Assembly (NCBI GenBank): GCA_947460235.1
Contig: CANHGK010000001.1
Location: forward strand, 124,001-188,000
Source: Paenibacillaceae bacterium
GTDB taxonomy: Bacteria; Bacillota; Bacilli; Paenibacillales; CANHGK01
Length of the DNA stretch: 64,000 bases
Reading direction: 5' to 3'
Shown: positions 5,601 to 48,350 of the stretch, piece after piece
How positions within the stretch are numbered: the first letter of the stretch is position 1
Layout: the number at the start of each line of letters is the position of its first letter
Program-made: the position numbers and the translations under genes
Notes under the pieces: model-generated
Databases searched by the model: none
Told to the model about the DNA's origin: nothing
Seen by the model: the letters and a program-made list of their open reading frames with translations, nothing else

Positions 5601-8600
5601 AGCGTACCTTGAGAAACATTTTCAGCAACGAATGTTTTACTAATTAGAATATTCGTCGGATACTCATTCACATTATTCACAGTAATCAACATGATTTTGT
5701 CAAACGTCAATCCACCACGGTCGGTCGTCCGAACACGTATGGAGTAACTCGTCTGCAATTCGTAGTTAAATACGGTTTTTGTAATCAATTGATTTCCACT
5801 CATTAAAAATGAAGCATTTCCCGTTGCACCCGATCCGCTCACGAGAGAATACGAGAATGCGTCACCTTGATCGATATCCGTAGTCGAAAAGCTTCCAATG
5901 GCAGTTCCGGCAACTGTGTTTTCATTAATGCTGTTCGCGCTAATACTAATATCACTAGGAACTTCGTTGACATTCAAAACACTTAAATTCAACACTTCTT
6001 CCCAGTACAATTCACTGGAGTCCGTCGTACGAATACGAATTGAATAAGCATCTTGCACCTCGTAATCCATTGCTTCATTCGTACGCAATTCACTTCCCAC
6101 AATCAAAAAAGCACTGTTATCGGTGTCACCCGAACCCGCTACAAAAGAATACGTAAATGAGTCTCCAAAATCTTCATCTGTTGTCGAAAAAACACCAAAA
6201 ACAGAACCGATTGATACATTTTCCTGAATACTAGATTTACTAAGTGATACATCCGTTGGTGTTTCATTTAGATTACTCACGGTGATCGTGAATATTTCTT
6301 CGGAAAACAATCCACCGATATCAGTCACGCGAACACGAACACTTAATGATGGGTCTGTCTCATAATTGATTGGTAATTTGGTTTTAATTTGGTTGGCAAC
6401 AATGACGAACATATTATTGTCATCGGAACCAAGTCCATCCACTAACTTGTACGTTATTTCATCACTTGGATCTGGATCAACGGCCGAGAATGTACCAACT
6501 AAGGTGTTACTAGGAACATTTTCATCGATGGTTGAATCATCAAGTATTAAGTTATCCGGTTTTTCATTTACATTTAATATGGTAATCGTGAATACTTGTT
6601 CATAACCGAGTCCCGCCGCATCTTCTGTTCGAATGCGAATACTGTGCGTACTTTGTTTCTCATAATCCAAAATAACGGACGTCCGTAGTTCAGAACCGGC
6701 AATAATAAAGTTTCCGTTATCGTCCGCACCCTCACCTTCAACCAAGTGATATGAGAAATAATCCCCGATATCTGGGTCGGTCGTCGAAAGCATCCCTACC
6801 ACAGTTCCAGCTACCAGTTTTTCCTGCAATGTATCTGCCGTTAATCCGAGTGCAGTAGGTGTTTCATTTAAGTTATTTACGTTAATGAAAAATCTACGAC
6901 TTAAGGTTAATCCGTCAGAATCGGCAACTTGTACGCGAACGGTATACGTTGTTTTCGTTTCAAAATTAAACGCGTGATTCGCGAGCAATTTATTATCTGT
7001 AATTGAGAACAGCGCATTGTCATCATCACCGACTCCACTGACTAGTGAATACGTAAAAGGAGCGATCGAATCTGGATCTTCGGAACGGAATTCACCAACG
7101 ATCGCATCGTCTGCTGCATTTTCATCAATAGACTCATCACTCATCGTGAGTGATGTCGGCGCCTCGTTCACATTAACAATATAAATGACGAAAGCTTGCT
7201 CCAAAAACATTCCGCCAGCATCTGTGGTACGAACACGGATTTCATAATTCGTTTTGTTTTCATAATCGAACGAACAACTAGCACGCAAACTTGTCCCAGA
7301 TATGGTGAAGCAACTGTTGTCAATCCCACCCTCACCTTGAACAAGGGTATACGTAAATGGATCGGAACTATCTGGATCTGTCGTAGAAAAATGACCAATA
7401 ACCGAATCCAACTGAACGTTCTCATTCACATGATTCGCATCGAGTTCAATTCCTGATGGCTCTTCGTTAATGTTCGTTACACTTATGCTTAGCGTTTTTT
7501 CGAAAAACAATCCCGCAGCATCCGTTGCTCGGATGCGCACTTTATATTGCGATTGCATTTCGTAATCAAACATAATTTTGGAACGCAATTCATTATCGAT
7601 CAATTGGAATGAATCATTTCCATCCGAATCGACACCATCCACCAATGTGTATTGGAACGTATCCCCTTCATCTGGGTCTGTCGAGCTGACGGTTCCAATG
7701 ACCGTTCCTAATGGTTTATTTTCCGAAATAATTAAACTTGAAAGTGACAAGTCCGTTGGTGCTTCATTGAGATTGGATACCGAAATCGTAAACATTTCGA
7801 CTCTTGATAACCCACCCGAATCCGTGACTTGTACACGAATACTAAAACTTGAATTGGTTTCATAATTAAAGGAAGCATTTGTAGTTAGTACATTCCCGGT
7901 AATTTGGAATTGACTATTTTCGCCATCTCCTGTCCCATTCACAAATGAATACGAAAATGAGTCCCCTTCGTCTGCATCAATTGCCGAGAACGCACCAATG
8001 TTTGTGCCAATCCCTGCATTTTCAGCAACGACTGTGTTACTGATCGACATATCAGACGGCGCCTCATTCTCGTTCTGCACTTCGATCACAAATACTTTCT
8101 CTGTGTACAATCCGCCTGAATCGGAGGTCCGAACACGAATACTGTACGTATCATTTGCTTCATAATCAAATCCAGCAGCTGATTGCAAATTCGATCCGTC
8201 GATTGTAAATGACGCATTATCCGTGGAACCTTGCCCATCAACTAATGTGTATGTGAACGGACTTGTACTGTCCACATCATACGTTGAAAAGGTACCGATT
8301 ACCGTTCCAGATGATTCGTTTTCAGTAATCATATTATTATTAAGTGTTATGGACGTCGGCGCTTCGTTTAGATTATTCACTGTAATTGTAATGATCTTTT
8401 CAAAATAAAGATTGCCTGCGTCCGTAGCACGCACTCGAATACTCAGCGTAGGCTTGCTTTCATAGTCGATCGGTGCGATCACGCGTAAATCAGAACCAGA
8501 AATCGCAAATTTCGTATTATCTGAACTTCCGTTTCCATTTACTAGCTCATAAGTTACTGTGCCAGCACCATCGGGATCAACCGCACTAAACGAACCGACC

Positions 8601-9250
8601 AACGTACCCGTTGAAACATTTTCATCAATTGCTGATGTGTTCAAACTAATATCCGTCGGCGTTTCATTTACATTTGTGACGGTGATCACAAGCATTTTTT
8701 CAAAATACAATCCACCAGTATCCGTCGCACGAATACGAATCGAGTACGCTGCTTTTGTTTCATAATCTGGAATGACCGCTAGTTTTAACTTGTTTGTACT
8801 TATAACAAAAGATGCATTATCCGCCGATCCAGTACCGGTAACAAGCGAATAGGTAAATGTGTCACCAAAATCAGGATCAGCACCTGTAATTGTGCCTAGC
8901 GTTGAGGCCAACGCTGAACCTTCAACGACACTCGTGGACGATAAGTTAATATCTGTTGGTGTTTCGTTCACATTTAATGTGTTGATCACAAACGTCGCTT
9001 GATAAGTCAAATTATCGCTGTCTTTTACTTGAAGTCGAATATAAAATGTTGCTTGCGTTTCGAAATCGATCGCAGATACCGTCTTCAGATTCGTTCCAAC
9101 AACCGTAAACTTCGCATTGTCCGTGTCCCCGTTACCGCTAACAAGCGAGTATGTTGCTGTATCTCCTGCATCAGGATCCGTAGATTGAATCGTTCCTACG
9201 GTTGTTCCTACCGCTACATTCTCGGACACAGAAGTGCTTGATAACGTTAG
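2666..9250 (-). repeat. 22 tandem 300-bp coding repeats (cadherin-like)
   Basis: The C-terminal two thirds of the giant gene consist of 22 consecutive units of about 297-300 bp, each encoding one cadherin-like repeat. The linker motif NxNExP occurs 21 times. Units are clearly diverged from each other in DNA, so the array is old, not a recent expansion, and there is no frame break inside it. Confidence 0.9.
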
Positions 9251-11665
9251 TGATAAGGGTGGACTTTTGGTGTATGCCCAAGCCGTATTCGACGTCCCTG
9301 CAGATGCACCGCCAGTAACAAGCAACCGAAAATCATAGCCTGTCGACGCGTTCAATCCAGAAATCGTTGCGGTAGTAGCCGTTGTACTAATCGCATCTGT
9401 ATCCGCTACGCTCCAGGATCCCAAGCTTTCCGGCGATTGCTGAACGATAATCGACGTTGCGCCGGTAATTGCCCCCCAGCTTACAACAACGGATGAATCT
9501 GATTTTGATGTGACAACAAATGACGTAATCGCTGTATACATGGATACACTAACTGCATTCGAAATCCCAGATTTTGTACCACCAACCGCATACAAACGGA
9601 ATTGATAGCTTGTCCCGAGTTTTAAGCCTGTAACCGTACCAGTAGTCGAAGACGCCGAGAGCGCAGATGACGTCGTTGATGCCGTCCAAGTTGCCCCGCC
9701 GTCTTCGGATTGCTCAATCGTCACAGCGGTTGCACTCGTTGCTGCTACCCATGAAAATGACGCCGAATAAGGGTTTGAAGATGTGTTTTTCGTTGTCATT
9801 GCAAAATTCGCAACCGGTGACGATGCAGCTGTCGTTAACCGTACAATCGCAGATGATCCTTCCAAAGAACCACCTACAATAACTAGACGGAATAAATACG
9901 TACTACTTGGACTAAGTCCAGTTACTTTAGCAGCCGATGAAGTTGCAGACAACGCACTCGATGTTGTTGCGTCGCTCCACGATGTTCCATTGTTTGAGGA
10001 TTGTTGAATTTTTACGCTTGTTGCACCGGTTGGTGCTGCAAATGTAAACGATGCCGCGTTCCCAGTCGTTTGTGTAGAAGTTGCCGCAAATAAATATGCT
10101 TGTTGAATGCTTGACGATTTTGCTGAACTTAAATCAAATTCGAAGTTCGACGTAATATTCGGATCTTTCGCATCGGTAAATGCAGTGGAAGGTGAAATCC
10201 CCCATGTCCACTCAGAACCAACGGTTTCGTTAACCATCATCACAACCATTTGCAATGATTTCGGATTTCCGATGCTTGCCCGTGGAATTTTGAATTCAAC
10301 GAACGTGCCGCTTTTACTAACCGAACCCGACCACGTCGTTGATGACCACGTTGAACCATTCCATGATTGGATATCCGTATATGAACCGTTTGTTTTCCAA
10401 CGCAAATGATATTGAGCGGCAAAAGACATTGCGGGTTGCTGTGTCACATAGGTTTGTCCATTTGTCGTTCCAGCAGAACCGCCAAAATACATTTGTACCC
10501 ACTTACTCGCGCTGTTAGCATTTACATCTGTTCCCGAATAACCAACATACACATAGGTTGAATCCCACGTGACATAGGCGTTATATCCGGATGAGGAGGA
10601 ACTGAAATTTTCGGCACTCGTTCCAGATGCATTAAAATCATTCGTACCATCGATCGTAATCGCGTGGGTATAAGCCGTTGTCGGTGAGGCGGTCGTTGTA
10701 AATTGAACAATCGTTGATGTGCCTTCATTGGATCCGCCGCTCACAGTTAATCGAAATGCATACGCTGTCAAACTGGTTAATCCGGTTACCGTCGCCGACG
10801 TTGACGATGCCGATAGCGCACTCGATAATGTGGCACTTGACCATGTTGCACCTTGATCGGTTGATACATCGACTCCGACCGAAGACGCCCCCGCTGCCGC
10901 GGCAAAGGAGAAACTTGCGGTATTATATGAGTAAGAGGAATATGCAAAATTCGAAGACGCTTGACGAGTACTCGCGGAATCCGCACCTAAATCAAATGCA
11001 TAAAACTTACTAAATGTGGGAGCAGTCGAATACGCATCCGTAAATGCATTACCAGGCAAAACAGACCATGTCCATTCCGATCCAGCCTTCTCATTCATCA
11101 TCAATGCGTTTAATTGTAAAATGTTCGGGCTACCAATATCAGATCGAGGAATTTTGAACTCTACAAATGTCCCTGATTTCGAAACGGTTCCACTCCACGT
11201 TGATGTCGCCCATGTAGAACCATTCCACGTTTGCATATTGGTATATGTTCCGTTTGATTTCCACCGCAAATGGTATTTCGCATTAAATGGAAGTGCCGGT
11301 TTTTGGTGATTATATGACAAGCCATTCGTAGTACCGCCAGTACCACCAAAATAAAATTGCACCCATTTATAGCCTGCATCCGTCGAGGAATTCACCTCGG
11401 TTCCGGTCACACCAATATAGACATTTGTCGAATCCCAACTTACAGACATTGAATAACCTGAAGTTGACGTCGTAAATGACTCGTTCGTTGTGCCGCTCGA
11501 GTTAAAATCATTGGTTCCATCGATCGAGATCGTATGGCTATATGCCGCAAACGCCATCATTGGCGCCAACAGAATTTGTTGAAAAATTAACACACTGATC
11601 AACATCCACTTGATCACCGCATGCTTCTTACTTCTATTAAATGAGAACAATCCTTTGTATCTCAT
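2666..11665 (-). CDS. Giant secreted cadherin-repeat protein with carbohydrate-binding-like and FN3 domains
   Basis: About 2999 residues. A signal peptide (basic NRSKKH stretch, hydrophobic core, AFAAY cleavage region near residue 40) is followed by two copies of a 190-residue CBM9/DOMON-like beta domain beginning HTISIDGTNDF and HAITIDGTNDF (about 42-230 and 335-525), fibronectin III-like domains (one between the copies, three after), then from about residue 805 to the end 22 cadherin-like repeats of about 99 residues. Repeats carry calcium-type motifs: ENxxxGT, DPDxGD, DYE, TDxGGL and the NVNEAPT linker. Start ATG 11665 has GGGAAG eight bases upstream. No SLH, LPXTG or other anchor is visible at the C-terminus, which ends KAFVITVTP. 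A role in carbohydrate adhesion or as a surface fibre is inference. Monocistronic. Confidence 0.85.
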   Translation of the reverse strand: MRYKGLFSFNRSKKHAVIKWMLISVLIFQQILLAPMMAFAAYSHTISIDGTNDFNSSGTTNESFTTSTSGYSMSVSWDSTNVYIGVTGTEVNSSTDAGYKWVQFYFGGTGGTTNGLSYNHQKPALPFNAKYHLRWKSNGTYTNMQTWNGSTWATSTWSGTVSKSGTFVEFKIPRSDIGSPNILQLNALMMNEKAGSEWTWSVLPGNAFTDAYSTAPTFSKFYAFDLGADSASTRQASSNFAYSSYSYNTASFSFAAAAGASSVGVDVSTDQGATWSSATLSSALSASSTSATVTGLTSLTAYAFRLTVSGGSNEGTSTIVQFTTTASPTTAYTHAITIDGTNDFNASGTSAENFSSSSSGYNAYVTWDSTYVYVGYSGTDVNANSASKWVQMYFGGSAGTTNGQTYVTQQPAMSFAAQYHLRWKTNGSYTDIQSWNGSTWSSTTWSGSVSKSGTFVEFKIPRASIGNPKSLQMVVMMVNETVGSEWTWGISPSTAFTDAKDPNITSNFEFDLSSAKSSSIQQAYLFAATSTQTTGNAASFTFAAPTGATSVKIQQSSNNGTSWSDATTSSALSATSSAAKVTGLSPSSTYLFRLVIVGGSLEGSSAIVRLTTAASSPVANFAMTTKNTSSNPYSASFSWVAATSATAVTIEQSEDGGATWTASTTSSALSASSTTGTVTGLKLGTSYQFRLYAVGGTKSGISNAVSVSMYTAITSFVVTSKSDSSVVVSWGAITGATSIIVQQSPESLGSWSVADTDAISTTATTATISGLNASTGYDFRLLVTGGASAGTSNTAWAYTKSPPLSLTLSSTSVSENVAVGTTVGTIQSTDPDAGDTATYSLVSGNGDTDNAKFTVVGTNLKTVSAIDFETQATFYIRLQVKDSDNLTYQATFVINTLNVNETPTDINLSSTSVVEGSALASTLGTITGADPDFGDTFTYSLVTGTGSADNASFVISTNKLKLAVIPDYETKAAYSIRIRATDTGGLYFEKMLVITVTNVNETPTDISLNTSAIDENVSTGTLVGSFSAVDPDGAGTVTYELVNGNGSSDNTKFAISGSDLRVIAPIDYESKPTLSIRVRATDAGNLYFEKIITITVNNLNEAPTSITLNNNMITENESSGTVIGTFSTYDVDSTSPFTYTLVDGQGSTDNASFTIDGSNLQSAAGFDYEANDTYSIRVRTSDSGGLYTEKVFVIEVQNENEAPSDMSISNTVVAENAGIGTNIGAFSAIDADEGDSFSYSFVNGTGDGENSQFQITGNVLTTNASFNYETNSSFSIRVQVTDSGGLSRVEMFTISVSNLNEAPTDLSLSSLIISENKPLGTVIGTVSSTDPDEGDTFQYTLVDGVDSDGNDSFQLIDNELRSKIMFDYEMQSQYKVRIRATDAAGLFFEKTLSISVTNINEEPSGIELDANHVNENVQLDSVIGHFSTTDPDSSDPFTYTLVQGEGGIDNSCFTISGTSLRASCSFDYENKTNYEIRVRTTDAGGMFLEQAFVIYIVNVNEAPTSLTMSDESIDENAADDAIVGEFRSEDPDSIAPFTYSLVSGVGDDDNALFSITDNKLLANHAFNFETKTTYTVRVQVADSDGLTLSRRFFINVNNLNETPTALGLTADTLQEKLVAGTVVGMLSTTDPDIGDYFSYHLVEGEGADDNGNFIIAGSELRTSVILDYEKQSTHSIRIRTEDAAGLGYEQVFTITILNVNEKPDNLILDDSTIDENVPSNTLVGTFSAVDPDPSDEITYKLVDGLGSDDNNMFVIVANQIKTKLPINYETDPSLSVRVRVTDIGGLFSEEIFTITVSNLNETPTDVSLSKSSIQENVSIGSVFGVFSTTDEDFGDSFTYSFVAGSGDTDNSAFLIVGSELRTNEAMDYEVQDAYSIRIRTTDSSELYWEEVLNLSVLNVNEVPSDISISANSINENTVAGTAIGSFSTTDIDQGDAFSYSLVSGSGATGNASFLMSGNQLITKTVFNYELQTSYSIRVRTTDRGGLTFDKIMLITVNNVNEYPTNILISKTFVAENVSQGTLVASLSTVDADDSDAFTYTLVSGLGSSDNATFSITDDQLQTADDLNFESKNTYSIRLRTTDSGELYFEKVVVILVTNVNEQPTDISISGTNVYENSSAITVVGKLSTTDPDIVDTFQYSLVSGVGGTDNGSFAISGTQLMTTAVFNYETKTTYNVRIRATDAGGLATEKTYEITILNQNERPVEINLTSTVISENLSAGTSMGNLSTVDPDADESFTYALISGASNTGNSSFTIAGNVLKTNTVFDYEKQTSYSIRMNVMDAGGLKLEKVFVLSVTNTNEQPSALTLSNNSIAENVISGTNIGMLSTTDIDSGDTFVYGFAEGIGGNDNNEFLIVGNVLKTKSAIDYESKASYSVRVRTTDFGGLYFEKVFEIKITDVNEGPTSLTLSTNTIAENVAVNSIVGAFNTVDQDRGQMMTYSLVAGLGNADNASFLFAGNVLKAKVSFNYEMKSVYTIRIRSADSGGLTIENIFTINVIDVNEAPSELILSKSVIAENSALGSSVGTLTTIDQDVSETLVYSLVGGNGSTDNSSFVISGNVLKTAVNVNYELKPTYSLRIRTTDAKGLFYDKIFAISVSDVNEIPTDLSLSSVVVNENVSLAKIVGNLSSTDEDRKDTFVYSLISGAGSVDNGNFSISGNVLKTNAKMNFEVADTHSIRVRTMDRSGLSFEKVIAINVNNINEAPYNALISNASIDENSGAGATIGTISGLDEDTTDTSFVYSLIAGVGSGDNAQFSLTGATLKSRINFNYEVRANYSIRVRVMDAGKLYVDKVLMIYVTDVNEAPSGMTLSDVEVEENAAVSTVVGLLSTVDPDKNETFTYSLSSGTGSSDNGSFSVFTNQIRTFAALNYEAKKTYSIRLKSTDSAGYSVEKVYLIKIKDVNEAPTNLTLSAITIKNYSIALTNIGLITAVDPDALDTFSYRVIGGSGSVDNGAIIINGNLLRIRNKPNMNSKSSYEIRIRGTDSKGLFFDKAFVITVTP

Positions 11666-12064
11666 TTCGATCACTTCCCTTCAAAATCAATGCACCAACG
11701 GTATCGACACTACTTTATATTTATCGGAATATTTCGCCTAAAAGCGTTTACATTTATATACCACTATAATAACTTCTTTTCCTTTAATTTTCTGAACATT
11801 CATATAAATGTGCTACGTTGCTACACACGAACTTAAATTTAAATTTTGACTAAAATCGTAGATAATGAGACAAATTATGAAGATGCGTATAACCATAGAA
11901 AGAACGGGAAATTTTTCGAATTTTATGTAGCAAAATCGCGTATAAAATCGTAAAATGTAATTTGTAGTGTTTTTACGAATATCAAATTGTGCGACCATTT
12001 GCACAAGCTTTCCCATTTATTCGCAGTTTACATTTTATGTATTATTTTTGATGGAGGCGTCGTC
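11666..12064. other. Divergent intergenic region between giant protein and GH13 genes
   Basis: About 400 AT-rich bases carrying the promoters of two divergently read genes. A cre-like site lies at 11739-11752. Minus-strand TATATAAAT-type sequences next to it could be a -10 region but I cannot single one out. No RNA gene was recognised. Confidence 0.5.
11739..11752 (-). promoter_or_regulatory. cre-like CcpA operator upstream of the giant protein gene
   Basis: On the minus strand the sequence reads TGTAAACGCTTTTA, which fits the Bacillus cre consensus TGNAARCGNWWNCA at 13 of 14 positions. It lies about 75 bases before the start codon, so catabolite control of this gene is plausible. Confidence 0.5.
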
Positions 12065-14203
12065 GTGAAAAAGGCTAAGAGTAGCAGCAAGTTAACCACA
12101 CTAATGAAGCTATTGAAGAAAAAAGTACCCCAAGGAAAAAAAATCGCCGGTTACACCGTGCCTGATATGTGGAATTGTTTTGATTACTCCGGAAAAGAAT
12201 TGAAGATTGCCGCAGAAGGTTTGCTAGAGGTGAATCCATACCAGTTTTATCATGATGCAATTTCCGCGATCTTCGAAACGGAAGATTATAGCGAAGACAA
12301 CAATTACTCGCAATCCATAACAAAAACTCATGGTAACCTCGACCAGAACAACTGGGGTTATATGGGCGGTGACTGGATTAAGAAGGCGACCATGTATTCG
12401 ATGCATGTTCGTACATCCACTTCTTGGGATCATAACGGTAGCGGATCACTTGAAGATCAAAATGAACAAGGCTTCAAAGAAACCGGTACATTCCTAAAAT
12501 CGATCGCTCTCCTGCATTTATTGAAAAAAATGGGGATCACAACGGTATATTTGTTACCGCTTTCGAAATATAGTGATAACTTCAAAAAAGGTGAGATGGG
12601 TTCCCCCTACGCAGTAAAAAACTTCTTTGCACTGGATCCGAACTTGAAAGATCCAATGTCAGAAGATGCATTTACCGTTGAAGACGAGTTCGCAGCGTTT
12701 GTTGAGGCCGCTCATATTTTGAATATGCGCGTCATGATTGATATCATTCCTCGTACCGCATCACGCGACAATGAATTGATCGCTGAGCACCCGGATTGGT
12801 TCTACTGGATTCGAACTGCGGATCTAGAAAACTACAATCCTCCATTCGTTGACGGTGTTCCTCAAGCCGAGAAACCATCGTTTGATAACTTATGGAATAT
12901 TTATCATTCAGGTCAAGTCTGGGAACATATGCGCAAATTTGTTGCTTCCCCAGATCGTATGGATATCGGAAAATGGGAATGGCTCAAATCCCGTGTTCGC
13001 GAAAATCCAGAATTGGATTTATTCGAATTAATTCAACAGGAATATGGTATTACAACAGCACCAGCGTTCTCTGATGGTGTCAACGACCCACAACCACCAT
13101 GGACGGATGTAACGTTCTTGCGTTTATATTTGGATCATCCGGCGGCTGCAAAACATTACCTGAATACTGAAGTCGACAATATCCAACCATATATTTTATT
13201 TGATGTGATCAAATCAAATATTTTCAAAGGCGAACACCGTAACGAAGAACTATGGAACATGCTTTCGGGCGTCATTCCGTTCTATCAAGAACAATTCGGC
13301 ATTGACGGCGCGCGTATTGACATGGGTCATGCCTTGCCGGAGGAACTCGTTCATCTCATTCTTCAAAAACCGCGTGAAATCGATCCTGACTTCTCCTTTA
13401 TTGCGGAAGAAGTACTTGTTTGGTCGGGTGGCCATGCACGCTACACTGGTTATAACATGATCATCGGCGACGGTTATTATAACGAACCACGCTTGTTGGA
13501 AACAAAAACTCATCAGTTCTTTTACGAAGCACCTTGGTTCATGGCTCCCGTTTTCGCAACTGCGGAAACACCGGATACACCGCGCATTAGCGCACGTCCC
13601 GGTGGTCGTCAATTGGCTCGTTTTGTAACTGCACTAAATCATTTTATGCCGAACGGGGTTCCATTTATTAACTCCGGTATGGAATTATATGAAACACAAC
13701 CAATGAACACTGGATTGGATTGTGCACCGGATGAGCGTTTCCGCTTATTCCCTGACGATCCGTACTACGGAAAATTAGCTTTCTTCGAAAAATTCCAATT
13801 CCATTGGACGCTTCCTGAGCGTTGGGAAATGGCCGAATACATTTCTGTACTCGGAAGCCTAAGAAGCCGCTTCATTGGCACACTTGGCAATATCGGCAAT
13901 TATACTCGAATCAATACAGGGGATTGGACGACACCAGCCATCGCTTTTGGTTATGTGATGGATAACCGCCGCTGGCACCATCACGATAATTTGCTGATCA
14001 TCGTTGCGAATACCGATTTGGCGCACAGCCAATCCTTCACACTTGATCTCGGCCAGGCACGTCATGAGTCCGGCAATCTTTCGCGCAAAGCATGGGTCGA
14101 GTTCTCCAACTACGGTTGGCAAGCAGATCTGTGGGATTTCGACGATAAGTGGAATCTACATGTAAACATGAATCCAGGCGAAGTTCGTGTAATCATTCTA
14201 TAA
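12065..14203 (+). CDS. GH13 alpha-amylase family protein (cytoplasmic)
   Basis: About 712 residues with no signal peptide, so intracellular. A GH13 TIM barrel is visible: region I DIIPRTASRD (about 224-233), nucleophile Asp in DGARIDMGH (about 419), acid/base Glu in FIAEEV (about 448), and a third Asp in AETPDTPR (about 504), where GlgE-like relatives have His before the Asp. The FINSGMELYE segment also resembles the GlgE/maltosyltransferase side of GH13. Hydrolysis or transfer on alpha-glucans is expected; the exact reaction is not assigned. GTG at 12065 is chosen as start because GGAGG lies seven bases upstream; the open frame begins earlier without such a site. Single gene ending at a bidirectional terminator. 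Confidence 0.8.
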   Translation: MKKAKSSSKLTTLMKLLKKKVPQGKKIAGYTVPDMWNCFDYSGKELKIAAEGLLEVNPYQFYHDAISAIFETEDYSEDNNYSQSITKTHGNLDQNNWGYMGGDWIKKATMYSMHVRTSTSWDHNGSGSLEDQNEQGFKETGTFLKSIALLHLLKKMGITTVYLLPLSKYSDNFKKGEMGSPYAVKNFFALDPNLKDPMSEDAFTVEDEFAAFVEAAHILNMRVMIDIIPRTASRDNELIAEHPDWFYWIRTADLENYNPPFVDGVPQAEKPSFDNLWNIYHSGQVWEHMRKFVASPDRMDIGKWEWLKSRVRENPELDLFELIQQEYGITTAPAFSDGVNDPQPPWTDVTFLRLYLDHPAAAKHYLNTEVDNIQPYILFDVIKSNIFKGEHRNEELWNMLSGVIPFYQEQFGIDGARIDMGHALPEELVHLILQKPREIDPDFSFIAEEVLVWSGGHARYTGYNMIIGDGYYNEPRLLETKTHQFFYEAPWFMAPVFATAETPDTPRISARPGGRQLARFVTALNHFMPNGVPFINSGMELYETQPMNTGLDCAPDERFRLFPDDPYYGKLAFFEKFQFHWTLPERWEMAEYISVLGSLRSRFIGTLGNIGNYTRINTGDWTTPAIAFGYVMDNRRWHHHDNLLIIVANTDLAHSQSFTLDLGQARHESGNLSRKAWVEFSNYGWQADLWDFDDKWNLHVNMNPGEVRVIIL

Positions 14204-21354: not shown

Positions 21355-21408
21355 TTGGTTTTCGGACAATTCTTGTGTTATTATTATTTGGAATAACGTT
21401 TGCGCAAA
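21355..21408 (+). promoter_or_regulatory. Promoter and LacI-type operator of the amylase gene
   Basis: TTGGTT (21355-21360) and TATTAT (21379-21384) are 18 bases apart. Directly downstream, 21387-21408 is an imperfect palindrome centred on AACGTT (TTTG...AACGTTTGCGCAAA), the layout of a LacI-family operator such as those of MalR or CcpA. Its place just after the -10 fits repression. Confidence 0.5.
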
Positions 21409-21435
21409 ACTCCATTTCCCCGAAAGAGGTGCTCC

Positions 21436-24400
21436 ATGCACTCCCCCAAAGTATTACATCACCCGATCATGACAACATTTCTTTTTCTCGTTATTTTTTT
21501 ACTTGCATGCACAAGTAGCGTCAATGCCGCGCCGAACACAGCGCAGAATGCGGCTTGGAATGTCAATATGAGTTCCGATGGCACAAATCCCGCCGGTTAT
21601 TACGGCAATTGGACTGGACACGCGTATTATCCTTCGCCGAATGATTGGCGTACTGTATCCATTTATCAATTTATAACCGACCGTTTCCGCGACGGTGATC
21701 CAACGAATAACGAAGGCAAGTATGGCGGTTACAATTTATACCGTGCCGATATGCGCCATGGCGGAGATTTTAAAGGAATCTCAGATTCCATCGACTATAT
21801 AAAAACCCTCGGATACAATGCCATTTGGATTTCCCCAATATTTCAGAATCGCACGAATAATTACCATGGATACGCTCAAACCGATTTCACGCTTCTCGAT
21901 GACCGATTTGGCACATTAAGTGATTTTCGAGACATGGTAAACGTAGCTCACAGCAAAGGTGTATACGTCATCGTCGATATCGTCGTCAATCATATGGACA
22001 ACTTGCTTTACTTTGATGGATATCAAAATGCCAGTGCACCGTTCAAAATGCATGCTGGAGAATATAAACTTTATTATCGTAATTCTAATGAGCTGTACGC
22101 TGATTTTTGGGTCAACAATAATTTTTATAGCGCTGGACTTTATACTGATGTATATAATTGGGACGGCACGAAGGTCACTGACTCAAATCTCGGAACCGGT
22201 TCATTCTGGGACAGCGATTTCCACCATAATGGCGATCTCGGCGACTACGGAAACCCCTGGCAAAATCATCTCGGCAAAATTTACGGCGTCATGGATGACC
22301 TTCGTACGTCCCATCCGCGCGTACAAGATAAAATTATCGCGATGACAAAATCCTTGATTGGATCAACAGATATTGACGGGATTCGAATGGATACGCCGAT
22401 GCAAGTTCCACTCGGCTTCTTTAAGCGCTGGATTCCCGCGGTAAAAACATACGCAAAAACGCTTGGGAAAAATAATTTCTTTATCTACGGCGAATTTTAT
22501 TGCGATCGTAAACGCGGTGCAACGATGGTTGGGCGCGGAAAAGATGCAACGATGTACAACAATCAGAATGCATTTATTGATAATACATTTGCGATGGATG
22601 GCGGAATCAATTACGCGCTCTATTTCAGCTTTTTCCAAGATGCGATTAAAAATCAATCGCCATTCAAATTAACGCAAATCAAAACGCAATATGACGAAGA
22701 CCTCAAATCGTATGATTGGTGGAATCCATCCGCAAACGAAATGCGCTATGAAATGGTGAATTTTTTTAATAATCACGATCAATGGCGGATGAGTTATGCG
22801 ACCGACGGTCAAGCCAAAACGAACCTTTCTAGCGCAATTATTGCCTTTTGGCCTGGTATTCCGCTGTATTATTACGGAGACGAGCAAGGGTTTAACTCCG
22901 AAGGCACCGCACTGGATGGTTGGTCACGCGAAGATTTTATGACAAGTCTCGCTTGGTACAACGTAAAAACAAAAACGGGCGCAATCAACCCAGCGATTCA
23001 AGATAATTTTAATATGACCAACCCGATCTATCTTTGGGTTCAAAAAATCATGAACGTCCGCAGGCAATATCCTGCATTACAAACGGCAGATTCTATCATT
23101 GATCGTTGGCAACAAGCAAGTGCGAATCCAGGAATATATGCATATACGCGTATTTATGGCACGCAAAAAGAATGGGCTTTCGTCGCATTTAATACGTGGT
23201 CCGGTCCGTTAGAAGCTGGCGGATCACTCGGGACGTTAACCACAGGGTTTAATGCTGGAGACGTCATTGTAAATGTGCTAAATCCTTCGGAAAAATATAC
23301 CCTTGGAACTGGCGGTAAGATCAATTCATTAGTGGTCGAGCCTTATTCGATCAAAGTATTTATCCGCGCTGATAATGTAAAGGTACTCGATCCAGTTGTC
23401 ACCAATGTTACCCCATCACACGACACTCGTATTACGACGTCAGCAACGCAAATTAACATCACGTTTAGCGAAACGATGGATGAAACGTCGGTTAAAAACG
23501 CGTTCAATTATGATGGCAAAAGCGTGGACCCTGCATTGCTAAATTATCAACCATCCACAAAAACACTAACATATAGCCCACTTTCCATCGAGGACGGCAT
23601 TCATAAAATTACTATTTTAGATACTGCGACTAGCCAAGTTGGAAAAAAAATGAACGGTTCTTTTATTTCTCGTTTTCGTAAAGGTTCAGAGATGAATCCG
23701 ATCGCGAATGCTCAATTAAGTTGGATTCGAAACAATAACTTAATTAACAATGGCGCAATCACATCATCAGGAATGAATGTCAAACTATATCATGATGCAG
23801 CTGGGGCAACAAAATTCCGTGTCTCCAATGACGGCGGATCAACATGGAGTTCGTGGCAACCGTACCAACCTGTGACGGATTGGACGATGTCTTACACAGG
23901 GCTCAATCAATTAGTTGTTGTTCAATATTGGGCAGACGGTAGCGCAGCCTATTTCACAGATGATGTCATCAACGTAGGAGAGATTCCCGCGCAAAATTAC
24001 AGTTTAACACTTTATTACAAAGCACTTTGGACAACGAATGCATCCTTTTTCCATTATCGTCCCGTAGGTGGTGCGTGGTCTGTTGCACCTGGCAAACCAA
24101 TGAGTTCCTCAGCTTTTCCTGGGTATTGGACAATCACCGTCGACCTTGGTTCCAATAATGGGATTGCCGAATCAGCCTTTAATAATGGTGCAGGCATTTG
24201 GGACAATAATAATTCATTAAATTACTCTTTCACTCCGGGCATATTTACCTTAAATGGCAATACAATTACACCTGGAACTCCGGAAATCGATACGATTGCG
24301 CCTTCAATCCCAACGAATGTTACCTCAACTGGCGTATCGGCCACATCCGTATCTTTGTCATGGACGGTTTCCACAGACAATGTCGGTGTGAGTAGTTATG

Positions 24401-26013
24401 ACATTTATCGAAACGGCAACAAAATCGGCTCATCCCTTACCAATTCATACACGGATCCGACAGTATCGGCATCAACTAACTATATTTATACAATAAAAGC
24501 GAATGATGTGTCTGGAAACAGTTCGACTGAATCCGTTGCTTGTTCAATTACAACACCAAGTGTTCCTGTAGTGACATCGAATAAAATCACCATTTACTAC
24601 AAACCAAGTTGGACGGGTACGAATACTTATATACACTTTGCACCAACTGGCGGTAGTTGGACCGTTGCACCAGGAAAGGTAATGAGCCTATCAACGTACA
24701 GTGGATACTATACAATTACACTTGACATCGGCTCCGCGACCGGAATTACTGCAGCATTCACCAACGGAAGTACTTGGGAAAATAACAATTCCAAAAATTA
24801 CTCGATTGCAGTTGGAACATTTACAATTTCAACCGGAATCGTGACAATAGGCACACCAACGTTGGATACGATTGCTCCAACGACTGCGACGAATGTCACA
24901 ACATCAGCACTCACTTCATCAAGTCTTAATTTATCTTGGTCTGCTGCGACCGATAATATGGCGGTAACCGGTTATGATGTATATCGAAATGGTGTGAAAA
25001 TTGGATCGACACCTGGCCTCACATTTAGTGATGCAAGTTTAGCAGCATCAACGAATTATACGTATACGATCAAAGCGTTTGACGCTGCAGGAAATTACTC
25101 CGTGGATTCAAGTTTGTTAAACATAACGACATTAGCAGCACCTATCACGATTTCAAATAAAATTACGATATACTACAAATCTGCGTGGACAGGTAATATA
25201 ACGAATATTCATTATGCCCCTCTTGGCGGTAGTTGGACCGTTGCACCTGGCAAATCAATGAGCGCTTCTTCCTTCAGTGGTTATTACACCATCACGCTTG
25301 ATATCGGTTCAGCAACCGGGATTACCGCAGCATTTAATAACGGAAACACATGGGAAAATAACAATTCAAAAAATTATTCAATTTCTGTTGGTACCTTCAC
25401 GATCGCTCCAGGTGTGGTCACATCAGGCACCCCAGTTCTCGATACGAATGCTCCTTCTGTACCGAATAACTTGGCATCAACTTCACTCACTTCATCGAGT
25501 GTGGGCATAACATGGACTGCGTCGACCGACAATGTGGCAATTGCGGGATATGACGTTTATCGGAACGGTGTCAAAGTTGGTTCGACAATAAGTACATCAT
25601 TTAACGACACCGCACTCACTGCAACGACGAATTATACGTATACGATCAAAGCGTTTGACATTGCAGGAAATTACTCTGCCGATTCGGTCGCGCTCACCAT
25701 CAAAACATTGACTACACCAATTGTCGGTTCGAATAAGCTCACGATTTATTACAAACCTACGTGGACTGGTAGTGTCACAAATATTCATTATGCCCCTCTT
25801 GGCGGTTCATGGACAACTGCACCAGGCAAAGCGATGAGCATCTCTTCTTTTGCGGGGTATTTCACCATCACCCTTGATATCGGTTCGTCAACAGGTATTA
25901 CCGCGACATTCAATAACGGAAACACATGGGACAACAACAATTCCAAAAACTTTTCCATTTCAGCTGGTACCGTTTCAATTAGTAGTGGAGTCATCAAAAC
26001 AGGAACTCCTTAA
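21436..26013 (+). CDS. Secreted alpha-amylase with four CBM25-like and three FN3 domains
   Basis: About 1525 residues. A signal peptide (hydrophobic core FLFLVIFLLACTSS, cleavage near VNAAPN) precedes a GH13 catalytic domain (about 60-650) with all regions intact: DIVVNH, nucleophile Asp319 in GIRMDTP, acid/base Glu353 in YGEFYCD, and Asp448 in NNHDQWR. Then come an SbsA-type Ig-like domain, a WSSWQPY-type beta domain, and four CBM25-like starch-binding modules (SLTLYYK or KITIYYK through WENNNSKNYS) alternating with three FN3 domains (DNVGVSSYDIYRNG type). ATG 21436 has AGAGGTG upstream. It degrades extracellular starch; no cell-wall anchor is visible. Single gene with its own promoter, operator and terminator. 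Confidence 0.92.
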   Translation: MHSPKVLHHPIMTTFLFLVIFLLACTSSVNAAPNTAQNAAWNVNMSSDGTNPAGYYGNWTGHAYYPSPNDWRTVSIYQFITDRFRDGDPTNNEGKYGGYNLYRADMRHGGDFKGISDSIDYIKTLGYNAIWISPIFQNRTNNYHGYAQTDFTLLDDRFGTLSDFRDMVNVAHSKGVYVIVDIVVNHMDNLLYFDGYQNASAPFKMHAGEYKLYYRNSNELYADFWVNNNFYSAGLYTDVYNWDGTKVTDSNLGTGSFWDSDFHHNGDLGDYGNPWQNHLGKIYGVMDDLRTSHPRVQDKIIAMTKSLIGSTDIDGIRMDTPMQVPLGFFKRWIPAVKTYAKTLGKNNFFIYGEFYCDRKRGATMVGRGKDATMYNNQNAFIDNTFAMDGGINYALYFSFFQDAIKNQSPFKLTQIKTQYDEDLKSYDWWNPSANEMRYEMVNFFNNHDQWRMSYATDGQAKTNLSSAIIAFWPGIPLYYYGDEQGFNSEGTALDGWSREDFMTSLAWYNVKTKTGAINPAIQDNFNMTNPIYLWVQKIMNVRRQYPALQTADSIIDRWQQASANPGIYAYTRIYGTQKEWAFVAFNTWSGPLEAGGSLGTLTTGFNAGDVIVNVLNPSEKYTLGTGGKINSLVVEPYSIKVFIRADNVKVLDPVVTNVTPSHDTRITTSATQINITFSETMDETSVKNAFNYDGKSVDPALLNYQPSTKTLTYSPLSIEDGIHKITILDTATSQVGKKMNGSFISRFRKGSEMNPIANAQLSWIRNNNLINNGAITSSGMNVKLYHDAAGATKFRVSNDGGSTWSSWQPYQPVTDWTMSYTGLNQLVVVQYWADGSAAYFTDDVINVGEIPAQNYSLTLYYKALWTTNASFFHYRPVGGAWSVAPGKPMSSSAFPGYWTITVDLGSNNGIAESAFNNGAGIWDNNNSLNYSFTPGIFTLNGNTITPGTPEIDTIAPSIPTNVTSTGVSATSVSLSWTVSTDNVGVSSYDIYRNGNKIGSSLTNSYTDPTVSASTNYIYTIKANDVSGNSSTESVACSITTPSVPVVTSNKITIYYKPSWTGTNTYIHFAPTGGSWTVAPGKVMSLSTYSGYYTITLDIGSATGITAAFTNGSTWENNNSKNYSIAVGTFTISTGIVTIGTPTLDTIAPTTATNVTTSALTSSSLNLSWSAATDNMAVTGYDVYRNGVKIGSTPGLTFSDASLAASTNYTYTIKAFDAAGNYSVDSSLLNITTLAAPITISNKITIYYKSAWTGNITNIHYAPLGGSWTVAPGKSMSASSFSGYYTITLDIGSATGITAAFNNGNTWENNNSKNYSISVGTFTIAPGVVTSGTPVLDTNAPSVPNNLASTSLTSSSVGITWTASTDNVAIAGYDVYRNGVKVGSTISTSFNDTALTATTNYTYTIKAFDIAGNYSADSVALTIKTLTTPIVGSNKLTIYYKPTWTGSVTNIHYAPLGGSWTTAPGKAMSISSFAGYFTITLDIGSSTGITATFNNGNTWDNNNSKNFSISAGTVSISSGVIKTGTP
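24580..26013 (+). repeat. Three similar CBM25 coding segments spaced about 580 bp
   Basis: The segments near 24580-24850, 25150-25440 and 25730-26010 encode closely similar CBM25 modules and share long identical stretches in DNA, for example around GGCGGTAGTTGGAC. They are far more alike than the first module at 24000, which points to recent internal duplication. Confidence 0.8.
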
Positions 26014-44323: not shown

Positions 44324-44368
44324 AAAAAGAGTTTCTTCCCGCTATTTGTCGGAAAGAAACTCTTTTTA
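44324..44368. terminator. Bidirectional terminator between clpP and agrB
   Basis: AAAAAGAGTTTCTTCC pairs with GGAAAGAAACTCTTTTT. It serves both clpP (+) and the agr-like operon (-). Confidence 0.88.
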
Positions 44369-44992
44369 TTTGATTTTTTCTTTTTCAACCCACAAAATGA
44401 ACCTACGTACGAACGAAAGATTGAACCCATACGCAATCCACGCACCAATTACAGCCGCACTTAGAAAAGCTGCACATTGGGATTCATTCACATGTAACAA
44501 TCCTATTGCGACCCATGTGAAGAGCGTAATCATGAGCCACCCGTAAGATAACCCCTTACTCATCTCAATACGTCTCGATGTATACTTTCTTTTCCCCCAC
44601 CGAATTGGAACATGAAAAAATGTGATCCAACACCCCATTATACCCACAGACAGCATTACCAAGATTCCAATTACACCAAAGCGCTCCACCGGGATGAGTA
44701 TTCTTGTGATTCCCAATCCGAGAAGCATTGTTCCCGTCGACCACACCACACAACGCACAAAAGTCTGTGCGTGAACGCCTCCGGTTATTGCCCGCGTGAT
44801 CGCATAACCAAGCATAACACCACCAAGTACTGACAATGCATTGAAGATCAATGCCAGCCCCAACCAGATCGCACCTTTAATGCATGATTGAAGAAAAATA
44901 TGCAGCCCAAATTGTAACACATCCACATGAAATTGCTTGTCAGCCTTTTCTGCAATATACTTTGCGCCACGATTTGACCACTCAGCCAGCAT
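44366..44992 (-). CDS. AgrB-like autoinducer processing membrane protease
   Basis: About 208 residues, an AgrB-family integral membrane cysteine endopeptidase that trims AgrD and closes the peptide ring. The catalytic pair is present: His74 in GGVHAQ and Cys81 in FVRC, spaced seven residues as in staphylococcal AgrB (His77, Cys84). Around five to six membrane segments. The start is set at ATG 44992, inside the last codons of the upstream kinase gene (coupling); 45010 is the alternative. Last gene of the agr-like operon; the only AgrB here, so it should act on the intact agrD product. Confidence 0.85.
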   Translation of the reverse strand: MLAEWSNRGAKYIAEKADKQFHVDVLQFGLHIFLQSCIKGAIWLGLALIFNALSVLGGVMLGYAITRAITGGVHAQTFVRCVVWSTGTMLLGLGITRILIPVERFGVIGILVMLSVGIMGCWITFFHVPIRWGKRKYTSRRIEMSKGLSYGWLMITLFTWVAIGLLHVNESQCAAFLSAAVIGAWIAYGFNLSFVRRFILWVEKEKIK

Positions 44993-46418
44993 ATTGCAGC
45001 TCGCCTTCATCCACCTGATTGGTTTGATTTGAGATCGGATTTGTCACCGGTAAATCAAAAATAAACTCCGTACCATTTTCGAGATTACTTGTCACATGAA
45101 GTTCTCCGCCGATCCGACTAAGAATTTGCGTGACAGAAGCCAATCCGACACCTTGATTACCAGACTTCGTTGTAAATCCTAGATTCAAAATTTGTTCCAT
45201 TCGATCCTGTGGAATCGGAGCAGCGTTATTCCCAATTACTAATTTAACTCTCCCTGCGTCTAATTTATTCGTACGCATCCAAATACGCTTTTCAACAACC
45301 CGATCCGATTCCTCGTTTTGATCAAAGGCCTCAATTGCATTGTTGATGATATTACCGATGATTACGCTCATTTCTGTGACCTTCCATGCGACTCCATTCA
45401 AATTGTCGACCAGTTGAAGATCCATTAAAATGTTTTTCTTGTCGGCCTCTGTAATCTTTACAAGGAGCAATGCACTTAAAAACGGATTACCCTTAACAAC
45501 TACGGCGTTCAATTGTTTAATTTCCATACTTACTTGACCGATGTATTCCATTGCTTGATTACCACGATTACTCTGAATTAAACCTTGTACCACCTGTACA
45601 TGATTCACGAAATCATGACGTTCCGCACGAAGTTGTGTGAATAAATATTCAATACTTTTCGATTGTTGAATCATTAAGTTCAATTGTTCATCTTTATATT
45701 CGAGCATTTCCTGCTTAAAAAGCATATTTTGCTTAGACTCCATTTGTTTTTGAATGCTAAATACTAACGCATAAATACTTATTGCCACAACAAAATAGAG
45801 AATAAAATCCATCATTTCTTTTGCACCAAAGCGGAACAATTCAAGTAAACAATATATACCCGTTGTCCAAACAAATATCATGAGCACATTGACTAAGCGT
45901 GTAAATCTGATGGAGACTTGATCGAGTTGCGCGTGAAACGTTGTTGCATTCGCTGGATTTTTATAAAAAGTGATCTTCCATCGATCAAGAACCCAAAAGA
46001 TCAACAGTTTTGAAACATACAAAAATGCAATTCCTGTCAAAAAAACATCCTTACGCATCCCGAGTTCTTGAATATCCATTCCTTTTACAAACACAAAATA
46101 CATTGCAACAATTATTTCTAATAATACTTCAAAAACCTTTAAAAACATTACACCTGCGAGCGCACGCCAAAATTTATCCGAGATGAGAATCCATGAAAGT
46201 AAAATCATACAAACAATTTGAATATATGTACGATTCTCGTTAAGCGGAAAATATGTACTTCCGATCGCATCAAAAATTGAAATCGCTAAGACCTGAAAAC
46301 CAAACGTGTATTTCTTTACCTTTGGACTCACATTCAATACCTTATAAATAATTAAATATCCTAAAATATTATCAATGAGCGCAGTTAATAAATATTCAGG
46401 CAAACTTAACAATGGCAT
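44982..46418 (-). CDS. AgrC-like GHKL sensor histidine kinase (kinase 2)
   Basis: About 478 residues. The N-terminal half has six or so membrane helices; the C-terminal half carries the phospho-acceptor segment RAERHDFVNHVQV, N-box GNIINNAIEAF, and a G-box GNQGVGLASV, of the HPK10/AgrC type. A coiled linker lies between. ATG 46418 has GGGAGG seven bases upstream. Downstream of agrD and overlapping agrB. It is paralogous to kinase 1, nearly the same in the catalytic half but different in the membrane half, as expected if the peptide ligands differ. No AgrA-type regulator is adjacent. Confidence 0.88.
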   Translation of the reverse strand: MPLLSLPEYLLTALIDNILGYLIIYKVLNVSPKVKKYTFGFQVLAISIFDAIGSTYFPLNENRTYIQIVCMILLSWILISDKFWRALAGVMFLKVFEVLLEIIVAMYFVFVKGMDIQELGMRKDVFLTGIAFLYVSKLLIFWVLDRWKITFYKNPANATTFHAQLDQVSIRFTRLVNVLMIFVWTTGIYCLLELFRFGAKEMMDFILYFVVAISIYALVFSIQKQMESKQNMLFKQEMLEYKDEQLNLMIQQSKSIEYLFTQLRAERHDFVNHVQVVQGLIQSNRGNQAMEYIGQVSMEIKQLNAVVVKGNPFLSALLLVKITEADKKNILMDLQLVDNLNGVAWKVTEMSVIIGNIINNAIEAFDQNEESDRVVEKRIWMRTNKLDAGRVKLVIGNNAAPIPQDRMEQILNLGFTTKSGNQGVGLASVTQILSRIGGELHVTSNLENGTEFIFDLPVTNPISNQTNQVDEGELQYAG

Positions 46419-46486
46419 ACATATGCCTCCCTCAATTGGATTGGGCACACCAAACGAGTGTTATGATGTGCCCGAAGAACGTTTAC

Positions 46487-46615
46487 TTATTCTGAATCCT
46501 TAACTAACACATCTGGAATCTCTGGTTCATGCAACCAAAATGATGTATTAATCCCAACACCAGACACCGCTAGTAAAGATAAGGCATTCCCCACAAACGT
46601 CATTACCTTTTTCAT
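46487..46615 (-). CDS. AgrD-like cyclic autoinducer pro-peptide
   Basis: 42 residues. An N-terminal amphipathic helix (MKKVMTFVGNALSLLAVSGV), a core INTSFWLH, and the conserved acidic C-terminal recognition tail EPEIPDVLVKDSE, parallel to EVEVPKEL in staphylococcal AgrD. The expected ring runs from Ser25 to His29, with AgrB cutting before Glu30; a serine would give a lactone, not a thiolactone. ATG 46615 has GGGTG five bases upstream; a longer frame from 46696 lacks homology. It lies between kinase 1 and kinase 2. Confidence 0.8.
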   Translation of the reverse strand: MKKVMTFVGNALSLLAVSGVGINTSFWLHEPEIPDVLVKDSE

Positions 46616-46708
46616 GTAATCACCCACACCCTTATCACGATTGGCAATTCGTGGAGGTTCATTGCTCAAGTGATTCATTCGAGATTTATTTGCCATTTTC
46701 CTTTGCCC

Positions 46709-48136
46709 TTATCCAGCATGATCTGCATCCCGTGCACGTAACGCTCCAGAACTAACTTGTCCCACGCTACTGTGCGTCGGCAATACAAACCTGAAGTTCG
46801 TACCCTCTTGATCAGAACTCGTGATGTCCATCGTTGCACCGATTCGATCGATAATCTGTTTGATCGATGCCAACCCTACGCCTTGGTGCCCCACTTTTGT
46901 TGAAAATCCATCATTCAAAATTTGTTGTAACACCTCATGCTGAATGGGCGCTGCATTATTGCCAATGACCAACTCGATTCGGTCATGATCAAGCAGTTTA
47001 CTCGAAATCCAAATGGTACTTTGATTTGTTTTTCCAATACCTCGTTTTTCTGCATTGAACGCTTCGATGGCGTTGTTGATCACATTCCCGATAACGACAC
47101 TCAGCTCTAACGGCTTCCAATTCACGCTTTGTAAATTATTACCTAATTTGACGTCAACATGAATTCCTTTTCGGTCAGACTCCGCAATTTTGACCAATAA
47201 AAGTGCACTTAAGAATGGATTTTCTTTAACAACAATGAAATTCAACTGTCTAACTTCAGCACTGATTTGCATCACAAATTCGATCGCCCGATCAAATAAC
47301 TTGCTTTGAATTAACCCTTGCAGCACTTGCACATGATTCACAAAATCATGACGTTCCGCACGAAGTTGTGTAAATAATTGTTCTACATTGCGCGATTGTT
47401 CAATCATGATGTCTAACTGTTCTTGTTTTTGTTTCACCAACTCGGCCTGAAGCATCATTTGATACTTTGTTTCCGAATTTTTATAGATCGTAAAGACAAG
47501 TACGATTGAAACGACTTCAACAATCATCAAAGCGAGTAATGCGAGGTGGTTTTTAGATAATGCCTCTTCATATTGAAGTATCATAAATATTCCAATCACA
47601 TTGACAACAACAAACAGTACGATAATCATTCTTAAATTTGATTTATACCTTGATTTCGATTGTTCATTGTCAATCAATCGTTTATTTAGCACAATATTCT
47701 TCGACTTGCACACATAGAAGATCAATAACATGACAATGATCATTAATGCACCAAAACTAGCAAATATGATCGGATTACCTACTACATCATCTTGTGTATA
47801 TCCGAAGAAGTACACGAGTGTTAAAAAACCAAAGATTTCTCCAATCATTTCCGTCAACTTCACAATGATCACTCCAAGTAGTGCAAACCATCTGACCGTT
47901 GGAAAAATGAAATATACCAAGGTCATTTGAACCGCAGGCCAAAGTATAACAGTAATTCCGTTCTCAGGTAAAAATGTAACTCCAATGAGATCACATGCCA
48001 TCATTGTTATCACTTGCAACCAGAATGCAACCTTATTCTTTGCATATGTTAACCCGAGTAGTTGAAATAATATCAAGAAAGCAATGAATTCATCGATAAT
48101 AATGATACTACTTTTGACTAACGTTAAGGTAATCAT
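46709..48136 (-). CDS. AgrC-like GHKL sensor histidine kinase (kinase 1)
   Basis: 475 residues, six or so membrane helices in the first 210 residues, coiled linker, then RAERHDFVNHVQVLQG (phospho-acceptor His), GNVINNAIEAF (N-box), and GHQGVGLASI (G-box). ATG has GGAGG seven bases upstream. It follows the decayed agrD and precedes the intact one, so it is the first intact gene of the operon. With kinase 2 it forms a pair that shares the catalytic half but not the sensor half. The peptide it senses is not certain. Confidence 0.88.
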   Translation of the reverse strand: MITLTLVKSSIIIIDEFIAFLILFQLLGLTYAKNKVAFWLQVITMMACDLIGVTFLPENGITVILWPAVQMTLVYFIFPTVRWFALLGVIIVKLTEMIGEIFGFLTLVYFFGYTQDDVVGNPIIFASFGALMIIVMLLIFYVCKSKNIVLNKRLIDNEQSKSRYKSNLRMIIVLFVVVNVIGIFMILQYEEALSKNHLALLALMIVEVVSIVLVFTIYKNSETKYQMMLQAELVKQKQEQLDIMIEQSRNVEQLFTQLRAERHDFVNHVQVLQGLIQSKLFDRAIEFVMQISAEVRQLNFIVVKENPFLSALLLVKIAESDRKGIHVDVKLGNNLQSVNWKPLELSVVIGNVINNAIEAFNAEKRGIGKTNQSTIWISSKLLDHDRIELVIGNNAAPIQHEVLQQILNDGFSTKVGHQGVGLASIKQIIDRIGATMDITSSDQEGTNFRFVLPTHSSVGQVSSGALRARDADHAG

Positions 48137-48200
48137 TCAAATTCCTCCAATTATGTATGGACCCTTTCTTGGTTGCGAGACCAAGCGAAGATCCGATTCA

Positions 48201-48300
48201 TTATTTTTCTTTTAATAACGCATCTGGAATTTCCGGTTCAACCGAAATAACCGAGTGTTCGGCTTACACGTAACAATGATAGAAAATACACCTTTTACAA
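48201..48300 (-). pseudogene. Decayed agrD-like gene upstream of kinase 1
   Basis: The minus strand ends with the AgrD recognition tail EPEIPDALLKEK and TAA, matching EPEIPDVLVKDSE in the intact agrD. Upstream, another frame reads KVYFLSLLRVS, matching KVMTFVGNALSLLAVS. The two halves are out of frame, the second codon AAA appears as TAA, and the start ATG as TTG. In the tail frame the residues before it read HSVISV, again with Ser five residues before the cut. So an agrD once stood here and was broken by substitutions and deletions. Confidence 0.6.
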
Positions 48301-48321
48301 TGACAAGTTATCCCAACTATT

Positions 48322-48350
48322 ATAGTAAGGTTCCAACGCAAAACCTGCAA
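48322..48350 (-). promoter_or_regulatory. Candidate promoter of the agr-like operon
   Basis: On the minus strand TTGCAG and TACTAT are 17 bases apart, with TATAAT overlapping three bases further on. It lies just upstream of the decayed agrD and is the only promoter-like sequence seen for the operon. Confidence 0.4.

Follow-up and report, generated by a model that had tools for sequence, protein, structure and literature searches.

Two described systems lie closest to the locus analyzed here. Staphylococcal agrBDCA encodes the maturase AgrB (PF04647), the precursor peptide AgrD (TIGR04223), a multi-transmembrane receptor kinase, and AgrA, and the catalytic role of the His and Cys residues of AgrB is established. 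In Clostridium perfringens, agrBD occurs without AgrC or AgrA and is read by VirS (PMC7492741). Two reports describe an effect of Agr on sporulation in clostridia (PMC10602386, PMC8534292), and Paenibacillus has a membrane Spo0B (PMC12826061).

We analyzed a 64,000-nucleotide stretch from the genome of a spore-forming Paenibacillaceae bacterium (the window), which contains at 44.3–48.3 kb an operon that shares AgrB, AgrD, and a multi-transmembrane receptor kinase with the staphylococcal system but possesses two kinases, a different gene order, and no AgrA or other LytTR protein in operon or genome. The predicted ring residue of its AgrD is Thr/Ser, compared with Cys in staphylococci. As in C. 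perfringens, AgrA is absent from the operon and the output would lie outside it; the difference is that the C. perfringens receptor is itself unlinked and pairs with VirR, whereas in the present locus the receptors are encoded within the operon and it is the regulator that is unlinked. We lean toward reading the locus as an Agr-type peptide quorum-sensing operon with duplicated receptors whose inputs have diverged and whose common output is an unlinked regulator of non-LytTR type.

Organization of the operon

A first-pass annotation of the window had proposed the order decayed agrD, kinase 1, agrD, kinase 2, agrB, without a LytTR (AgrA) or other regulator, in an operon ending at clpP. The sequence confirms this gene order, strand, and gene content (Table 1), and the interval from the MCP gene to clpP contains neither a REC nor a LytTR gene. 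Transcription of the operon would indeed end where stated, at an intrinsic terminator facing clpP, but clpP itself is convergent on the plus strand and not part of the operon. Translation of agrB probably starts at ATG 44992, overlapping the end of the K2 gene.

Table 1. Features of the agr operon, in minus-strand order (window coordinates)
Feature	Position	Strand	Evidence
Decayed agrD remnant	48204..48290	−	Direct sequence reading; tblastn/blastn
Stem-loop between decayed agrD and K1	48139..48218	−	−18.5 kcal/mol, z = −2.55, 1/200 shuffles equally good
Kinase K1 (AgrC-like TM sensor, SPOB_a DHp, HATPase)	46709..48136	−	
Intact agrD, 42 aa: MKKVMTFVGNALSLLAVSGVGINTSFWLHEPEIPDVLVKDSE	46487..46615	−	TIGR04223, 32.2 bits (cut-off 19)
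Stem-loop between agrD and K2	46421..46490	−	−23.1 kcal/mol, z = −3.3, 1/200 shuffles equally good
Kinase K2 (AgrC-like TM sensor, SPOB_a DHp, HATPase)	44982..46418	−	
agrB maturase	44366..45010	−	PF04647, E = 1e-17
Intrinsic terminator	44326..44365	−	16-bp stem and T-run, −21.7 kcal/mol, z = −7.97

The hairpin after each agrD is what would be expected had an agrD-hairpin-kinase unit been duplicated as a block, and such hairpins might tune peptide versus receptor expression. Duplication of a whole agrD-kinase-agrB unit would have been revealed by an agrB remnant, but tblastn and blastn searches of the sequence preceding the decayed agrD and of that following K1 returned chance-level matches only. 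A promoter scan performed at chance level (14 found versus 14.7 expected), and a TATAAT at 48319–48324 is at most suggestive as a promoter element.

Elsewhere in the window, a 3002-aa secreted protein with many cadherin-like repeats (LSSTSVSENVAVGT...) is encoded at 2666–11674 on the minus strand, followed by alpha-amylase-type enzymes at 11987–14203 and 21400–26013, all named from their translations.

AgrD peptides and AgrB

The intact agrD encodes a recognizable precursor, with an amphipathic leader, a ring residue, and an xPxxP tail, that scores above the TIGR04223 cut-off. Its ring column is occupied by Thr (−6), with Ser at −5, in place of Cys. Ser or Cys stands at the ring-residue column in 42 of 62 collected AgrD peptides, and both AgrD peptides of this genome carry Thr there (TSFWLH in the window and TFVWGY at a second locus, L033); a threonine lactone is thus a possible signal for both. 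The decayed copy retains EPEIPDALLKEK followed by a stop at ~48204–48239 and matches AgrD by tblastn (1.4e-4, 534-base stretch), with its start codon absent and its frame broken just upstream, as read from the sequence. The AgrB encoded in the operon retains the H-x6-C pair of the catalytic residues within GGVHAQTFVRC, and GGVHAxTFVRC is conserved in both AgrB copies of the genome.

A separate type of AgrD-like peptide, found at loci L060, L061, L063, L084, L087, L091, L093, L096, L098, and L110, bears Lys one residue past the usual Cys/Ser ring position and has no Cys/Ser there (e.g., FVKGFKLFVFSPEVPKEL). Such peptides may form a lactam, stay linear, or follow other chemistry.

Two receptor kinases with diverged sensors

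Both K1 and K2 score above the Pfam cut-offs for SPOB_a (PF14689) and HATPase_c (PF02518). Unrelated catalytic domains would have spoken against the duplicated sensor pair that the first-pass annotation had suggested; instead, the kinases are homologous (40% identity over 467 aa, E = 1e-100) and are sister sequences with support of 100/98. The kinases are SPOB/DcuS-like rather than of the staphylococcal AgrC (HPK10) type. Their helical phosphoacceptor domain contains RHDxxN and belongs to SPOB_a, the Spo0B/DcuS-like kinase group; its DHp sequence (RAERHDFVNHVQV) differs from the xKFRHDYxNI of canonical AgrC proteins in the same taxonomic order (L092, L094, L105), which are linked to REC-LytTR regulators and form a separate branch of the tree. 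K1 and K2 thus combine an AgrC-like sensor with a SPOB_a DHp and fall outside the canonical AgrC branch, appearing AgrC-like at the input side and not AgrC-type at the output side.

A predicted model of K2 (mean pLDDT 75) displays seven membrane-spanning helices, as counted by us from its helix list, followed by a pair of DHp helices and a CA domain. Among solved proteins, the kinase half comes closest to the kinase module of S. aureus AgrC (6e52, E = 2.5e-22), and the phosphoacceptor helices of the DHp match solved Spo0B (1ixm, 1f51; E = 1e-4). Foldseek searches with the K2 model retrieved kinase halves only (TM normalized to query ~0.3) and no sensor matches. Neither kinase is Spo0B itself, as the Spo0B-like gene of the genome is separate, beside obgE, and K1 and K2 lack the rplU-rpmA-obg synteny.

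The genome (2.72 Mb, 42 contigs, 99.2% complete) holds two agrB genes, two AgrD peptides above the cut-off, and four kinases of one family (K1–K4). K3 adjoins agrB2-agrD2 between transposases on contig 18 (L033), and K4 is an orphan, alone on contig 34. The K1+K2 pair is joined first by K4 (99/93) and then by K3, giving a K1–K4 clade (100/99) that is sister to the f22 agr-linked kinases (89/90). Because K1–K4 form one clade with K1+K2 innermost, the expansion is lineage-specific among the genomes compared, and K1/K2 is its latest duplication. SPOB_a occurs in six proteins of the genome: K1–K4, one further kinase, and Spo0B.

K3 (L033:5102-6439) is interrupted by a TAG between TM5 and TM6, at a point that falls within a loop predicted with low confidence in the K2 model (residues 155–165), and its second half has an ATG and a GGAGAG ribosome site; it may be a split receptor or carry a nonsense mutation. 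A locus divided at the same loop was observed in another genome (L053:5972-8450, G002), with the order agrB, agrD, 168-aa half sensor, and 426-aa ComP-like kinase, no adjacent response regulator, and no LytTR in the genome.

Identity between K1 and K2 is 27% in the sensor halves and 58% in the kinase halves. Identical codons at identical residues are near chance over the whole gene (88 seen versus 76 expected). Within the phosphoacceptor helix that contains His263 of K1, 14 of 15 codons are identical (P ~0.004 for scanning windows of 15, 20, and 25; P = 0.2 for a window of 10), and this patch is absent from the K1/K4 and K2/K4 comparisons. The simplest reading is a local gene conversion that would keep the output surface common while the sensors diverge, although selection on the DNA sequence itself could also produce the patch. 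The case for a shared output of K1 and K2 depends on this patch of 20 codons, which was picked out by a window scan. Convergence on one regulator and recognition of different peptides had been posed as alternatives; they are compatible, and the sensor divergence and the codon-identical helix hint at both.

In the mechanism that we favor, AgrB would mature the single AgrD peptide, which would then be secreted, and K1 and K2 would act as tandem-duplicated AgrC-like receptor kinases. Their sensors, having drifted apart, probably read different peptides (the operon's own AgrD1, AgrD2 from the second locus, or a foreign peptide), while their phosphoacceptor domains, kept alike, would donate phosphate to a single common response regulator whose gene lies outside the operon, most likely the Spo0F-Spo0B-Spo0A relay or an orphan NarL/ComA-like regulator.

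Related loci in other Bacilli

A class-wide profile search, combined with inspection of gene neighborhoods, retrieved 12 loci with a SPOB-type AgrC-like kinase beside agrB and agrD. An AgrA (REC-LytTR) is present in only one of these operons (L184 in G266, kinase-agrB-agrD-agrA), and another locus (L191) has an OmpR-type response regulator nearby on the opposite strand; the other 10 show no response regulator within the flanks fetched. The sole LytTR protein of genomes G286, G309, and G255 is LytT beside LytS, and that of G297 has no REC.

An AgrA gene in the operon of close relatives, lost only here, would have spoken against the first-pass view; the one relative found to have it, G266, is class-level rather than close, and scans of genome contigs found no close relative of this genome. 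The absence of AgrA is real but not special to the locus, being usual for receptors of this subfamily in several Bacilli families. These comparisons suggest that the SPOB-type AgrC-like receptor subfamily commonly occurs without a LytTR partner, the window being one instance, and that the tandem duplication alone is local to this locus. The agrD-kinase-agrD-kinase-agrB order, for which a search of related genomes had been proposed, was found in 0 of 60 order-level loci and 0 of 12 class-level agrB-linked loci. No description of such a locus was found in the literature searched, which is not proof that none exists.

Seven operons lacking a response regulator (L180, L181, L182, L183, L185, L188, L189) encode receptors of the same or neighboring clades, with AgrA likewise missing; unlike the window, each has one kinase and one agrD in the order kinase-agrB-agrD. 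The multi-kinase loci of family f9 in the same taxonomic order (L067, L068, L071) resemble the window in placing several AgrC-like sensor kinases around one agrB-agrD, but their tandem kinases differ in DHp type and are accompanied by a linked REC-HTH regulator of 199 aa, and the SPOB-type kinase of these loci is divergent.

More than one receptor per agrB is a recurrent arrangement in this order, seen as tandem kinases in L067 and L068 and as rows of three to five kinase-less sensors around a single agrB-agrD in L055 (4294-9660), L057, L080 (2545-6076), and L086 (6522-10683). The commonest agr layout of the order, seen in 27 of 60 loci (L054, L056, L060, L061, L066, L084, L090, L095, L097, L109, and others), is itself kinase-less: an AgrC-like sensor alone (~220 aa), agrB, agrD, and a LytTR-only protein without REC, the LytTR being confirmed by Pfam in L066. 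By hhalign, these sensors and the sensor half of K1/K2 are homologous (98.1%, E = 8.5e-14), and the layout resembles the streptococcal LytTR Regulatory Systems (PMC6193735, where AgrB is unmentioned).

Candidate output regulators and alternative readings

As with AgrA in the operon, no LytTR domain was found in the whole genome (99.2% complete) by a search that detected the domain in 5 of 14 control genomes and, in a joint search with further genomes, in 18 of 20, the other blank being G002. Since the genome lacks LytTR, a regulator shared by the kinases of the operon cannot be of the AgrA/LytTR type. The earlier suggestion of a distant regulator is borne out as far as sequence can tell, with no response regulator beside the operon, and the signal would leave through a regulator encoded elsewhere in the genome. 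Among its 64 REC matches, candidate partners are Spo0F/Spo0A and two orphan NarL/ComA-like REC-HTH proteins without an adjacent kinase (C16:41426, 219 aa; ComA-like C1:17331, 212 aa). The Spo0 relay genes are complete, comprising Spo0F (C2, a 122-aa REC protein identified from sequence), Spo0B (C12, beside obgE), and Spo0A (C26).

A kinase and REC-HTH pair on C25 that resembles the f9 regulator was set aside as a partner, as its adjacent kinase has a different DHp type, and no inference was drawn from it. The phosphoacceptor helix was likewise not discriminating as a guide to partner choice: RHDFxNHxQV is common to the AgrA-linked G266 kinase and to kinases without a linked regulator. Tandem REC-REC proteins were also observed clustered beside a 900-aa REC-containing kinase (L122, contig 33, 4000-19987).

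In a sharper form of the favored explanation, compatible with it, K1 and K2 would act directly on Spo0F or Spo0A, adding or removing phosphate, and Agr would thereby convey cell density to the sporulation phosphorelay. The complete relay, the Spo0B-type DHp with its matches to 1ixm and 1f51, the reported effect of Agr on clostridial sporulation, and the recurrence of the regulator-less layout in other Bacilli all point this way; the proposal is nevertheless doubtful, given that SPOB_a also occurs in DcuS/CitA-type kinases with unrelated partners and that no partner-specific residues were identified.

It is unlikely that the locus is instead a partial relic, in which the K1 unit has lost its agrD and is decaying while agrD-K2-agrB works alone as a plain single-receptor locus without a response regulator. 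The first agrD does lack a start and an unbroken frame, and the K1 sensor is the more diverged one (K2/K4 32%, K1/K2 27%, K1/K4 23%); with its upstream agrD dead, K1 may have been left without the ligand it first recognized and may be heading for loss. Yet K1 appears to be kept under selection, because after an old duplication (synonymous sites are saturated) it is still a full-length ORF that retains every catalytic motif and is preceded by a good ribosome site. Recent loss of AgrA from an ordinary agrBDCA operon, leaving a non-functional locus, is quite improbable: G266 does retain AgrA, but most relatives with a SPOB-type receptor lack it, and four receptors and two agrBD pairs are retained in a small genome with intact ORFs.

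Implications

The favored reading, that of duplicated receptors with one unlinked output, may tentatively be extended to a widespread Agr class in Bacilli with SPOB-type kinases whose output is an unlinked regulator, possibly the sporulation relay. In this lineage such a class would have multiplied to a network of four receptors and two peptides, with gene conversion in the phosphoacceptor helix holding tandem receptors of different input to one output. The locus offers a clean case of an Agr-type receptor that cannot use AgrA, and since the cell has no LytTR protein, the real output should be findable by a limited phosphotransfer screen. Diverged sensors joined to a homogenized phosphoacceptor helix would provide a natural example of duplicated receptors changing their input while keeping one output. 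Should Spo0F or Spo0A prove to be the partner, density sensing by cyclic peptides would feed directly into sporulation across much of the Bacilli.
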